Assembly (NCBI GenBank): GCA_945907765.1
Contig: CAMDTO010000008.1
Span: forward strand, 1 to 42,716
Reading direction: 5' to 3'
DNA from: Thermoflexus hugenholtzii JAD2
Lineage (GTDB): Bacteria; Chloroflexota; UBA11872; UBA12225
Length of the DNA: 42,716 nt
Below are positions 21,896 through 26,795 of this stretch, piece after piece. Numbering within the stretch: the first letter of the stretch is position 1; the number at the start of each line of letters is the position of its first letter. Position numbers and translations under genes: made by a program. Below the pieces are notes generated by a model. The model had not been told where the DNA came from and ran no database searches. It was given only the letters and a program-made list of their open reading frames with translations.

Positions 21896-22615
21896 TCACA
21901 CCGCGTATGCGCGGCGCACCATGCCTTCGATGTGAGAGGCAACCTCAGTCACTTGACGGTTGGCCCGCAATTTCTGATAGCGCGACGAACGCCAGAAGAG
22001 CGCCAGACTGAATCGGTGACACAAGTCGAGTACGAGGCGTCCGAACGCCGGACGAAGACCTGGCCGGCGCAGCGCTTCGCTCTCCAAACCATAGGCATAC
22101 CGAGGTGCGAGTTCCAGATGTCCATCAAGGATTGCCTGCGTGAGGAAGGCGGCGACGGCCGCGTTTCGACGCGCGGTCTGGGTTTCGTCCTGCGGAGCAC
22201 GCCCATCCACGTAGGCGAGGTGACTTGTGAAACCCTTTTCAGTCACTCTCGACGCCGGCGCTGGACCGAATGCCGCTGACCAGATTGGCGTGAGAACGCT
22301 CCGGGCGCGGACATCAAGGTTCTCGACCATCGCGCGCGCCAGAAGGTGGGCAAAGAGGTCAAGACGTTCGTCGTCGGAAAGGCGTTCGGACACGGTGATC
22401 TCTGCGCCGCGCGGCGAGGCGATCAGGAACCCCTTGAGATCTTCCATCGACGGTGTGGTCTCGCAGTGCACACCGCCTTCTTCAAGCAGTCTCTGGACGA
22501 TCCACGCAATCTCCGAGGCCTTGGTCTCACCACTGCTCAACCGCGAGCGGGCGTGTCTCAATCGGTCGGAAATCATCCGGGCGAGCTTGCCGGGCGGGAG
22601 CATCATTGCACTCAT
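21896..22615 (-). CDS. Probable degenerate ImmA/IrrE-like protein partnered with an XRE regulator
   Basis: A 239-residue protein not recognised with certainty. Residues 62-100 follow the ImmA/IrrE pattern (a GFLI strand, AEITVSERLSDDERLDLFAHLLARAM), where the family normally has AHELGH. Here the motif reads His90-Leu-Leu-Ala-Arg94, so the glutamate and second histidine of HExxH are gone and no zinc protease activity is expected. The start ATG 22615 overlaps the stop of the XRE gene (ATGA), so the two are translationally coupled, as XRE/ImmA pairs usually are. The C-terminal half (about 120 residues) is helical and unrecognised. The ImmA relation is inference from pattern and context. Confidence 0.55.
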   Translation of the reverse strand: MSAMMLPPGKLARMISDRLRHARSRLSSGETKASEIAWIVQRLLEEGGVHCETTPSMEDLKGFLIASPRGAEITVSERLSDDERLDLFAHLLARAMVENLDVRARSVLTPIWSAAFGPAPASRVTEKGFTSHLAYVDGRAPQDETQTARRNAAVAAFLTQAILDGHLELAPRYAYGLESEALRRPGLRPAFGRLVLDLCHRFSLALFWRSSRYQKLRANRQVTEVASHIEGMVRRAYAV

Positions 22616-23121
22616 CCCGACCCTTTCAAGGCGATCCCCGCCGGTTGTCGAGAGGTGTTGGCCCCCGGGTGGGTGGGTTCTCTGCCATTCCCATCGATAT
22701 CAGCATTCACCCGCAGGCCCAGGACATGCCACAGGAGGCTTCGTCGGAGTACGACCTGATCCGGCAGCGGAAGTGCGCGATACCGGACGAGCAACTCGTC
22801 AAACCTCTGCAAGTCGCCGATTGGCCAAGGCAAGTGGAAACCAACCAGAGCCATGAGGTCCATGAACATTGGCGCCGAAAGCCCTTGGCAGCACAATGCC
22901 CACCCAGCGAGGCGTTCCAGAGACAGGGGTGCGTCCAGGATGCCCTGTTCGTAGCGTGAGACCATGCTCTGGGTCATCCGGTAGCCAAGGGCTTCCAGAT
23001 CAATGGAAAGGCGCGCCTGGCTTGTCGCACCGGACTGGAGGCGCATACCCCGCAGGTACATCCCCACACGTTCGCGGATGGCCTGCCAGCGTGCCGTCTG
23101 AACCTCGTCTCGATCCGCCAC
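22612..23121 (-). CDS. XRE-family helix-turn-helix transcriptional regulator
   Basis: A DNA-binding regulator of about 169 residues. The helix-turn-helix sits near the N-terminus: IRERVGMYLRGMRL, then SQARLSIDLEALGYRMTQSMVSRYEQG, with the recognition helix around TQSMVSRYEQG, followed by LSLERLAGWALCCQGLS. GTG 23121 has GAGG ten bases upstream; ATG 23193 adds 24 residues without a binding site, and the open frame reaches 23268. A perfect 6-3-6 inverted repeat lies about 100 bases upstream and may be its operator. It is coupled to the downstream ImmA-like gene. Confidence 0.75.
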   Translation of the reverse strand: MADRDEVQTARWQAIRERVGMYLRGMRLQSGATSQARLSIDLEALGYRMTQSMVSRYEQGILDAPLSLERLAGWALCCQGLSAPMFMDLMALVGFHLPWPIGDLQRFDELLVRYRALPLPDQVVLRRSLLWHVLGLRVNADIDGNGREPTHPGANTSRQPAGIALKGSG

Positions 23122-23220: not shown

Positions 23221-23235
23221 ATGCACGCGGTGCAT
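23221..23235. promoter_or_regulatory. Inverted repeat ATGCAC-GCG-GTGCAT, candidate operator
   Basis: A perfect palindrome with 6-base arms and a 3-base centre, upstream of the XRE gene and between it and the divergent yjbQ-like gene. Dyads of this size are common XRE targets. Binding is inferred only from position. Confidence 0.4.
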
Positions 23236-23592: not shown

Positions 23593-24045
23593 ATGGGCAT
23601 GATGCGCACATTGACCCGGACGATCCGAGTCCAGTCGTCAAGGCATACGCAGTTTGTTGACATCACCGAGGCGGTTGCCGAGGCGGTTGCTTGCTCAGGG
23701 GTTTCGGACGGGTTTGTCGTGGTCTTCTCAAGGCACACAACAGCTCGGATACACATCAACGAGCACGAACCTCTCCTCTTGCAGGATCTGGGCCTGCTCC
23801 TCGAGCGCTTGGTGCCGCGTGACGCCTTCTACCATCACGACGATTTCTCGATTCGCACGGTCAACTTGACACCCGGTGAGCGTGTCAATGGCCACTCGCA
23901 CTGCCGAGGCTTGTTCATTGGCGCAAGCGAACACGTCCCGGTGACGGATGGGGTGATGATGCTTGGCCGGTGGCAGCGGGTCTTCATGGTCGAACTTGAT
24001 GGCCCGCAGACCCGCGAAGTAGCCGTGAAGGTTGTTGGCGTCTAG
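23593..24045 (+). CDS. YjbQ/UPF0047 family protein (secondary thiamine-phosphate synthase-like)
   Basis: A 150-residue protein of the YjbQ family, some members of which show weak thiamine-phosphate synthase activity; the true cellular role is unsettled. Diagnostic segments: SRHTTARIHINEHEP, then NGHSHCRGLFIGASEHVPV, and LGRWQRVFMVELDGPQTREV at the C-terminus, carrying the conserved His and the WQ...E.DGP.R pattern. Several close ATGs (23593, 23599, 23602) precede RTLTRTIRV where the family begins; none has a strong binding site, and GTG 23482 is possible. Its stop overlaps the convergent cobQ stop by three bases (CTAG). Confidence 0.85.
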   Translation: MGMMRTLTRTIRVQSSRHTQFVDITEAVAEAVACSGVSDGFVVVFSRHTTARIHINEHEPLLLQDLGLLLERLVPRDAFYHHDDFSIRTVNLTPGERVNGHSHCRGLFIGASEHVPVTDGVMMLGRWQRVFMVELDGPQTREVAVKVVGV

Positions 24046-24970
24046 AGACCGACGATCTCTCTGATCTGGGTGCTATCTACGATGGCCTGCGCTACGGTTC
24101 CGAGCCGATCAAGTTTGCTTTCGAATCCCGAACTGGTTCCCCACGATTGGGGTGGCATTAGGGTTTCCGCCCGGCGCTCCAAGACGGCCGAGAGGATTGC
24201 GCGTCGGACATGCCCGGTGTCGAAGAGGCCGTGCCTGTAGGTCCCGAGGATCAAATCGGTTACGTCGAGACACCCGTCTCCCGTCTGGTTCCGGTTCGAT
24301 GGCGTCCGGCCTTGGCGCGCAGCGATAGTGAATGGATGCGGTACCGGCAGGGTTGTGGTTGCGCTGCTCGGAATCGTGTGTCCAATGTGGATTTCCTGGC
24401 CCGTCAGGTCGGCACCGCGGACGGCTTCAAGAAGCCCCCGAGGGTCACGGACCTGCGAGCGGGCGAGGCACGTCGTTTTCTCCCGCGCGAATGCCGTGAT
24501 TACCCTCAACAATCCAAGTCCGGCAACACGGGTCCCCGCCGGCGCCTCGACACCGTCATTGTCCTCAACCAACTCTCCAAGTATCTGGAAACCGCCGCAG
24601 ATTCCGATGATCGGTGTGGCCAGTGCCGCAGCGTTCTCTGGGTGGACGAGTTCGGTGATCCGTCCGGGAAGTGCGGATCCCTTCAACTGCTGGACGGAGG
24701 CGACGGTCGTCGTTGTTCCCGGGATGATGATCCGGTCTGGCGACCCCAAGTCGACCGCGCGATCAACCCAGCGAACGCGTACCCCTTCCTCGCGCTCGAT
24801 TGGATCGAGGTCGTCAAAGTTCGACAAGTGGCGCAGGGCTATCGCTGCGATATCAAGGATGGTCGGCGAGCCCGCGCGGAACACTCGTGCGCCGTCGAGT
24901 GATGCTAGTGCGTTGGAGTCCCGGTTTTCCAGCGAGAGCGAATCCTCGTCCGGGATCGATAGGTCATGCA

Positions 24971-24976
24971 ACTCGG
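24971..24976. repeat. Left target-site duplication of the IS481-type element
   Basis: ACTCGG here matches ACTAGG at 25962-25967 with one substitution. Using the left copy, joining the flanks gives GTG CCC GAG TTG CAT on the minus strand, an uninterrupted CobQ frame. The right copy's C-to-A change creates the TAG that now ends the middle cobQ fragment. Confidence 0.7.
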
Positions 24977-25022
24977 TGTCGTCTCTCACGACATTGTTTA
25001 CAGCTGCTGGGGGGAATGGGAT

Positions 25023-25080
25023 GAAGGCCTCGCGCGGTACGGTGCTGGGTACTGACACCACACCCGCCAGCGAGGCCTTC
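25023..25080 (+). promoter_or_regulatory. 11-bp inverted repeat covering the transposase ribosome-binding site
   Basis: GAAGGCCTCGC (25023-25033) is the exact complement of GCGAGGCCTTC (25070-25080). The right arm contains GAGG, the likely Shine-Dalgarno sequence, just before ATG 25083. A transcript reading in from outside would fold and hide it, which is a known IS safeguard against read-through expression. Confidence 0.55.
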
Positions 25081-25082
25081 GG

Positions 25083-25955
25083 ATGCAACACGATCACCCG
25101 CACGCCAGGTTGACTACGCACGGGCGCTCACGGCTGCTTCACGTGGTCGCGTCGGGGACGCCGGTGGCCGATGCGTGCGCCGATGCAGGCATCTCGCGGA
25201 CGACGTACTCCCACTTGGAGGCAGCGCTTCGCGAGTTGAGGGACTGCCCGGGCTGGAGGACCGCTCCAACCGGCCCCGGTACCCCCGGATGGCGCTCACC
25301 CCGGCGCAGGAGCAGGCGCTCATCGGCATACGGACCGCGCAGGGATGGGGTCCCGACCGGATCGCCGTCGTGCTGCGACTGCCCGGTCCCAACGCACCAC
25401 CGGGCGGGGCCGGGCGACCTGGTCCACATCGATACGAAGAAACTCGGACGCATCATCGGCGGGCCGGGACACCGGGTGACCGGCGATCGCCGGTCGCGCT
25501 CCCGCGGGGCGGGATGGACGGTGATCCACGCCGCCATCGACGACGCGACGCGCGTGGCGCACGTTGAACTGCTCCCCGACGAGTGCGGGGAGACGGCCTC
25601 CCGTTTCCTGCGCCGGATGGATGCGCACTTCCGTTGGCTCGGGATCCAGCTGCAGCGGGTGCTCACGGACAACGGGAGCCAGTACGTCTCTGGAGTAGGG
25701 AAGGCGGCGTGCGCGGACCTGGGCGTGGGTGCCCGCCGGACCCGGCCGTACCGGCCACAGACGAACGGGAAGGTCGAGCGCTGGTTCCAGACCGTCCTGC
25801 GCGACTTCCTCTCCCTCCACCCGCTGGCGAGCGAGGACGAGCGTCAACGTGCACTGGACGCCTTCGTGGAGTACTACAACCATGACCGACCGCACCTCGG
25901 CATCAGGGGCCTCACCCCCCTCTCCCGCCTCGCTTCCCTGTCGACAACCTTGTGA
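25083..25955 (+). pseudogene. IS481-family transposase, frameshifted and internally deleted
   Basis: The DDE transposase catalyses cut/copy insertion. The N-terminal helix-turn-helix is in one frame (VADACADAGISRTTYSHL). Near 25255 the homologous text moves to the +2 frame (LPGLEDRSNRPRYPRM, then QGWGPDRIAVVLRLPG), and near 25395 it returns to the first frame (HHRAGPGDLVHIDTKKL). The return skips the segment that normally follows the second helix-turn-helix (STVHRVLRRHGL-type), so residues are missing there. The catalytic triad remains: Asp in HIDTKKL, Asp in LTDNGSQY, Glu in NGKVERWF, and the C-terminus YYNHDRPHLGIRG is intact. It is unlikely to be active. Confidence 0.85.
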
Positions 25956-25961
25956 GACACA

Positions 25962-25967
25962 ACTAGG
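25962..25967. repeat. Right target-site duplication of the IS481-type element
   Basis: ACTAGG, one base different from ACTCGG at 24971-24976. The change supplies the in-frame TAG after GVPIMGVVP of the cobQ middle fragment. Confidence 0.7.
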
Positions 25968-26795
25968 GCACGACGCCCATAATGGGCACTCCTGTCCTTG
26001 CTTCGAACCAGTCAAGTCCCGAGCGTATCAGCGTCGCGTCAGCTCTGAACTTGTTGATGATCACCCTTCGAACACGTGCGCGCTCGTCTGGTTCAAGCAA
26101 CTCGAGTGTTCCCACCAGATGTTCGAAGACACCGCCTCGGTCGATGTCGCCTACAAGGATCACAGGCGCATCGGCCATCTTGGCAATCGCCACGTTGACC
26201 AGTTCGCCATCCTTGAGGTTTATCTCGGCTGGACTGCCTGTCCCTTCGGTGACCACGAGATCACCTCGTGCCCGGAGCCGTGCAAGGCTGTCCTGAATGA
26301 TCCCGACCAACCCGGGTCGTCGCGAACGGTACTCGCAGAACCCCATCCGTCCCCATACTTTCCCAGCCACGATCACTTGCGATCGGAAGTCGGCCTCGGG
26401 TTTGAGGAGAATGGGGTTCAGGTCCGTGTGCTGACCTCAGGCTGACCCGGACGTGGCAGGACCAGTTACCAGTTGCGCGTCCCCATCTGACCCCCGTGAA
26501 CGGTTACGCAGCCGTCGCCTGCACCACTTGCGCCCTTCCCATCTCGACGCCCTCCGCATCGACGAACGAGTTGAGTGACATGTTCTGGGACTTGAATGGC
26601 GCTACCCGAAGCCCGTCGGTGTGGAAGACCCTGCTAAGCGCACTGACGAGAGGTGACTTTCCGACATTGGACGCAGTGCCCTGCATCATCACGGCCCTCG
26701 CAAGGGCCGGGCCCTGATGAAAGTCGGCAAATGCGACTGGGTCGCGCATGGGGTGCACTGCACGGGAGCACCGAACAGCCTCCCCCCAACGATTT

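Follow-up and report, generated by a model that had tools for sequence, protein, structure and literature searches.

The subject of this report is a pair of overlapping genes in Thermoflexus hugenholtzii JAD2, which encode a putative XRE-type helix-turn-helix (HTH) regulator and a protein of the ImmA/IrrE-like type without an HExxH motif, referred to here as pseudo-ImmA. The pair lies on the reverse strand of contig CAMDTO010000008.1, of which the whole analyzed stretch of 42,716 nucleotides is called the window; the assembly comprises 3.3 Mb in 270 contigs. The regulator gene (22612..23121, minus strand), assigned by its homologs and by weak HTH domain matches, begins with a conserved GTG start codon at 23121 and stops at 22612-22614, and its open frame extends to 23268. 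The pseudo-ImmA gene (21896..22615, minus strand) begins with an ATG at 22613-22615, ends at 21896, and encodes 239 amino acids. The two genes share the bases ATGA on the minus strand at 22612..22615, as a preliminary description of this DNA had stated. That description also correctly reported an ImmA-type flanking pattern around an altered motif: AEITVSERLSDDERLDLFAHLLARAM is present in pseudo-ImmA, and the motif there is H90-L-L-A-R94 (codons at 22334..22348, minus strand). According to the profile comparison and the alignment, this segment stands at the place of HExxH, with Leu replacing the catalytic Glu and Arg replacing the second His; AHLLARAMV of the window protein is aligned with AHELGH of a canonical ImmA-like protein. 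In an alignment of 21 rows, Ala152 (codon at 22160..22162, minus strand) stands where the third metal ligand is expected. The window protein has neither the catalytic HExxH motif of an M78 protease nor its third-ligand Glu, which is located on the helix after the motif.

Matches to pseudo-ImmA were found in 16 of 301 genomes of the phylum, of which 13, including the window's own, were accepted and three (loci L014-L016) were dropped as chance matches. A scan of genome contigs also gave 13 loci, all titled Chloroflexi, Chloroflexota or Dehalococcoidia, and 11 of them were contigs already known from the genome search. A profile search of 400 genomes returned 18 matches, i.e., the same 13, three further close members, the distant G217, and G262, which was dropped (E 0.004 over 50 positions); in a further search, G122 was left out (E 9.2e-4, internal stop). 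The named relatives are metagenome-assembled genomes of Chloroflexota. Eighteen close homologs were aligned, 17 of which are 28-97% identical to the window protein, whilst L082 is 24% identical to L006, and the open frame is intact in all of them. A distant second group, reached via G217 and belonging to other Chloroflexota families, has the same layout, in which an ImmA-like gene comes after a small gene. Its motif reads HSAAH in L104 and HVAAH in L107, L108 and L113, and D or H is found at the place of the third ligand, a column that is less surely aligned in this group. In L104, the two genes overlap. Since Pfam recognizes neither of the L104 proteins, the small gene of the distant group is described here as possibly encoding an HTH protein. 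The frame of L113 is broken despite its HVAAH motif, and this locus was excluded from the tree and from the counts given below, which refer to 21 aligned members (18 close and three distant). As separate polypeptides, pseudo-ImmA and its XRE partner constitute a family of their own. In the open-licence literature, no account of this Chloroflexota pair, or of any split XRE/pseudo-ImmA pair, was present in the titles and abstract openings among the matches listed.

In the genomes searched, the pairing of the two genes is strict. The regulator was detected in 16 of the 400 genomes, each time with E 1.6e-44 or better (limit 1e-6), and this set is identical to the 16 genomes with a close pseudo-ImmA, each of which gave one pseudo-ImmA match. 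Both genes are present in all 16 loci cut around the pair. The spacing between them was measured in 17 of the 18 pairs given, the partner of L081 having been missed by the search pattern, and the regulator adjoins the ImmA-like gene in all 17, consistent with the XRE/ImmA gene order described earlier. Nine of these pairs, several of the 17 being close sisters, overlap by 4 bases, five range, according to the start codon used, from a 20-base overlap to a 4-base gap, and gaps of 54-113 bases separate the genes in L072, L073 and L074. In its sequence, the partner resembles HTH domains weakly but consistently: with E values of up to 10 allowed, HTH_3 and HTH_31 were each listed for 15 of 16 regulator homologs (best values 0.001 and 1.2e-4, respectively), and the match of the window regulator to HTH_31 has no better than E 0.089, below the cut-off. 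When the PDB was searched with the regulator profile, arginine-repressor chains came out on top (E 0.1). Downstream of the HTH, residues 103-135 of the regulator (FDxLL...DQ...R...LLWHxLG) are strongly conserved and correspond to no named Pfam domain; this segment is a candidate surface for the binding of pseudo-ImmA. Outside the window's family, the identity to the window proteins is 29-37% for pseudo-ImmA vs. 51-65% for the regulator.

The alignment reveals how the active site has been altered. Ten comparators with HExxH, all Chloroflexota proteins from eight of the same 16 genomes and chosen for holding this motif, have H, E, H and a later E without exception. The catalytic Glu is absent from all 21 aligned members of the pseudo-ImmA family, in which the column contains Leu, Ile, Val or Ser. 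The first His, i.e., the H90 column, is kept in 14 of the 21 rows and the second His in 12. Thus, of the two residues whose conservation had been proposed as a check, H90 represents the ancestral first His, and R94 is a replacement of the second. Both His residues are kept in 11 members, all of which have E, D or H as the third ligand; over all 21 rows, the third-ligand column contains E, D or H in 17 and A in the remaining four, which are those of the window's genus. At the first His, second His and third ligand, respectively, the window, L002 and L026 have H, R and A, L003 has N, R and A, L004 has Q, H and D, and five members of another family have R, R and E or D. A tree built without the active-site columns and rooted on the distant group, with five end branches flagged as long (L104, L007, L004, L008 and L082), requires two changes between the presence and the absence of the complete His pair, compared with a mean of 7.2 after shuffling. 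One change lies on the branch to L004 and the window's genus and the other on the branch to the clade with R and R. Since Glu is missing in all 21 members and the tree places two later losses of the His pair, the alignment indicates that Glu was lost first and that the metal-type residues were lost later in two lineages, an order that depends on the rooting.

The preliminary description had named a predicted fold unrelated to ImmA/IrrE as the outcome that would speak against it; structure prediction and fold comparison returned an ImmA/IrrE-like fold. The AlphaFold2 model of the window protein, made with 13 sequences, has a mean predicted local distance difference test score (pLDDT) of 71.5 and a predicted template modeling score of 0.59, with residues 31-90 at a pLDDT of 79-90. 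A second model, made with 18 sequences and led by L006, a homolog with HLLAH, has a mean pLDDT of 75.9, with residues 61-120 at 92-94. The predicted order of elements is a helix, three strands, the motif helix, a strand, a second helix, and a helical tail. In a second look with VIA-align, the nine best PDB entries for each of the two models were IrrE, PprI, CapP or mycobacterial PrpR. For the window model, their Z scores were 6.2-7.5, with 3dte as the best match (Z 7.5, root-mean-square deviation 3.7, 103 aligned) and the next unrelated row at Z 4.7; for the L006-led model, they were 7.1-8.2, with 3dti as the best match (Z 8.2, root-mean-square deviation 4.4, 100 aligned) and the next unrelated row at 5.6. 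When Foldseek was run against a viral library, IrrE-domain phage proteins ranked first (best E 5.6e-3).

The relation to ImmA/IrrE is also indicated by sequence evidence that is independent of the structure models. With E values of up to 10 admitted, Pfam lists M78 for six of 13 members (best E 1.5e-4), and L006 lies at the cut-off of this family (about 22-22.4 bits vs. 22). Profile-profile comparison of 17 members with the ten HExxH proteins gave E 7.6e-5 and a probability of 62% over 63 columns, with AHLLAR placed over AHELGH. Since the AEITVSERLSDDERLDLFAHLLARAM stretch is conserved across the 18 homologs and L006 reaches the M78 cut-off, the resemblance of HLLAR to the protease motif is more than chance. 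A 13-bit Pfam match of the window protein to DUF2267 was set aside, because Pfam gives M78 for six of the 13 members and DUF2267 for three (best E 0.061). Several results weigh against the assignment. Foldseek alone found no significant PDB match for the window model (best 6cyj, i.e., PrpR, at E 0.04), and its best match for the second model was a non-M78 entry (E 0.62), with PrpR at E 2.3. According to the tool's own note, Z scores below approximately 8 may reflect a common arrangement, and the VIA-align second look re-aligns only candidates supplied by Foldseek. Furthermore, the window protein, L012, L082 and L104 are without a Pfam M78 match, NCBIfam gave no M78 match for the window protein, and a PDB sequence search with the pseudo-ImmA family profile yielded nothing better than E 0.81. 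In the predicted models, the fold of the window protein is ImmA/IrrE-like.

For the six pairs that can be formed from the window, L002, L026 and L003, the ratio of non-synonymous to synonymous substitution rates (dN/dS) of pseudo-ImmA is 0.164, 0.081, 0.077, 0.098, 0.087 and 0.117. Values of 0.08-0.16 argue that the gene is kept and is not decaying. Thus, the protein is under purifying selection in the window's genus, even though the catalytic Glu and two or more of the three metal ligands are missing there. The dN/dS of the regulator is 0.12-0.15 in five pairs of the same set. Neither the window's genome nor three sister genomes (assemblies 81-89% complete) gave a Pfam M78 match, and an HExxH-bearing M78 gene was not found in eight of the 16 genomes, including the window's. 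Since no such gene was found in them, it is unlikely that pseudo-ImmA acts through an active paralog, or as a decoy for one, in those genomes.

Repeat and pattern searches revealed a candidate operator approximately 100 bp upstream of the regulator start, i.e., the perfect inverted repeat ATGCAC-GCG-GTGCAT at 23221..23235 (no strand assigned). The perfect repeat occurs once in the window, as it does in three of 100 shuffles. A degenerate form with one mismatch allowed occurs once in the window's genome and was found upstream of the regulator in all five genomes searched within the window's family; a reversed control pattern gave no match, and G197 has two extra matches elsewhere. When scored at 12 positions over the 330 bases upstream of the regulator (232 in L075), the repeat has 11 or more matching positions in six of the eight members of its family (the window, L069, L070, L071, L073 and L075) and 10 in a seventh, L074. 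Part of this conservation may reflect recent descent, since four of the members belong to one genus. The search for an operator common to all members of the pair was negative, and the repeat is clear mainly in the window's family. A terminator scan yielded none, and the one promoter-like site found is within chance. That the regulator controls its own expression via this candidate operator is a guess.

The commonest neighbor of the pair is a gene of the UPF0047 (YjbQ) family, found in 12 of 16 loci and located in the window at 23602..24045 (plus strand). L075, one of the four loci without it, ends 232 bases upstream of the regulator. Locus comparison shows that it is divergent from the pair in the window, L008, L009, L010 and L011, and it may be a part of the system. 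The ten neighboring open reading frames (ORFs) scanned are ordinary chromosomal genes, except for an integrase-core ORF approximately 2 kb away. No relative of pseudo-ImmA was found in the viral_contigs or plasmids collections, the phage collection being outside the search, and a PADLOC scan of three proteins from these pairs gave no match. The preliminary description had linked the XRE/ImmA gene order to mobile elements and stress regulons; a mobile-element context is not supported. The integrase-core ORF (25083-25955, plus strand) lies within a cobQ-like gene (24042-26758, minus strand) that is in pieces (GATase_3, AAA_26 and CbiA). L069, a sister locus, matches both flanks but lacks approximately 1.2 kb (window 24896-26070) and approximately 75 bases near 26430-26507. 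The limits of the insert are unsure, since L071, which aligns only at window 25964-26430, does so over approximately 100 bases that L069 lacks.

ImmA/IrrE proteins are mostly regarded as proteases that cut repressors. On the combined evidence, we consider it reasonably probable that the pair forms a two-protein transcriptional switch, in which the XRE protein is associated with a catalytically dead, ligand-gated ImmA/IrrE co-regulator. The XRE protein would bind DNA and probably control its own promoter. The second protein, a putatively dead M78 domain with a helical C-terminal tail, would retain the ancestral docking on its partner and would change the DNA binding of the latter through physical contact alone, without cutting. 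This effect would be gated by a ligand bound in the former active-site cleft. In the lineages with HxxxH and E, D or H, this ligand may be a metal, whilst in the window's lineage, where two of the three residues are lost, it would have to be something else, unless the protein is a constitutive subunit. The data suggest a non-proteolytic co-regulator or sensor of the XRE protein; the earlier proposal of a sensor that has lost its protease is thereby partly supported, given the missing Glu in all 21 members and the predicted fold, whilst the sensing is our inference. A more detailed scenario, which we regard as possible and rather doubtful, is that Glu was lost first whilst the metal site was kept as a metal or redox sensor gating the XRE protein, and that metal-binding residues were then also lost twice, so that the window's lineage and another Chloroflexota family came to sense without a metal.

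To the reservations about the fold must be added some that concern the regulator. The dN/dS of the closest regulator pair, i.e., the window and L002, is 0.67, at a synonymous rate of 0.06. The repeat fails in L072 (9 of 12) and in seven of eight members of other families, L080 alone reaching 10 of 12, and it is not family-wide although the HTH stretch TQSM(V/I)SRYEQG hardly varies.

Other explanations have to be weighed against a ligand-gated switch. Pseudo-ImmA might be an obligate structural subunit, which completes a heteromeric repressor and senses nothing. The strict pairing of both genes would be explained in this way, and so would the constraint on the window's lineage despite the loss of its metal-type residues. 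However, the greater divergence of pseudo-ImmA than of the regulator outside the window's family fits a variable input domain better, albeit indirectly, and we consider a purely structural role unlikely. Many COG2856/xre pairs are presumed to be toxin-antitoxin or mobile-element modules (PMC2701414), and the gene pairing described here resembles that class. Such a role is nevertheless improbable, considering the lack of matches in viral_contigs, plasmids (phage collection excluded) and PADLOC, the single match per genome in 16 genomes, and the chromosomal UPF0047/YjbQ neighbor common to most loci. One could also imagine that the protein is still a hydrolase, in which the HxxxH site with E, D or H binds a metal and another residue serves as the base. 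Eleven of the 21 members do retain the His pair together with a third residue of the ligand type. However, the Glu position is Leu, Ile, Val or Ser throughout, and the window's clade, in which Arg replaces the second His and Ala the third ligand, is still under purifying selection, so that this is very improbable. Finally, that pseudo-ImmA is a decaying ImmA remnant, as the stepwise loss of active-site residues might suggest, is contradicted by the intact frames in all 18 close homologs and by the selection test in the window's genus and has next to no probability.

If the pair is indeed a ligand-gated switch, the docking and sensing part of the ImmA/IrrE fold can work without cutting. With its graded loss of the site, in which Glu went first and His and the third ligand followed, the family offers a way to test the order in which a protease became a sensor. 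Annotators should also bear in mind that proteolysis does not follow from the presence of an XRE gene beside an ImmA-like one.

Among known systems, ImmA/ImmR of ICEBs1 and the COG2856/xre pairs similarly have adjoining, often overlapping genes for an XRE and an ImmA-fold protein, but the catalytic Glu is absent in pseudo-ImmA. Thus, the pair keeps the ImmR/ImmA layout and not its chemistry. CapP of Thauera, which belongs to M78, resembles the two models in fold (Z 7.1 and 7.6, respectively), but the three proteins from these pairs that were scanned match none of the PADLOC models. The fold is also shared with IrrE/PprI of the Deinococcus IrrE/PprI-DdrO system, which provides the best structural matches, 3dte and 3dti, and which is a metalloprotease that cleaves DdrO (PMC7907104). 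In contrast to this active protease, pseudo-ImmA lacks HExxH.

A precedent for the design is MtPrpR of Mycobacterium tuberculosis, a ScfR/RamB-type regulator. It combines an HTH with an IrrE-like domain without HEXXH and is among the top structural neighbors of the pseudo-ImmA models. In MtPrpR, however, both belong to a single chain that also has a GAF-like part and a [4Fe4S] cluster, whereas here they are encoded by two genes, and the second protein has a helical C-terminus. The XRE gene has its own stop codon in all 17 pairs measured, and a single Cys (C51 in the window protein) is invariant across the 18 homologs, in place of a cluster of Cys residues. In the structure of MtPrpR, the HEXXH residues of the IrrE-like domain are not conserved and coenzyme A (CoA) occupies the cavity, and the authors noted a matching cavity in IrrE (PMC6765138). 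The expectation that an ImmA-like sensor without a protease would be novel was therefore overstated, since MtPrpR already has such an IrrE-like domain with bound CoA. By analogy with this CoA-holding domain, the Chloroflexota pair may be viewed as a split version of the MtPrpR idea.
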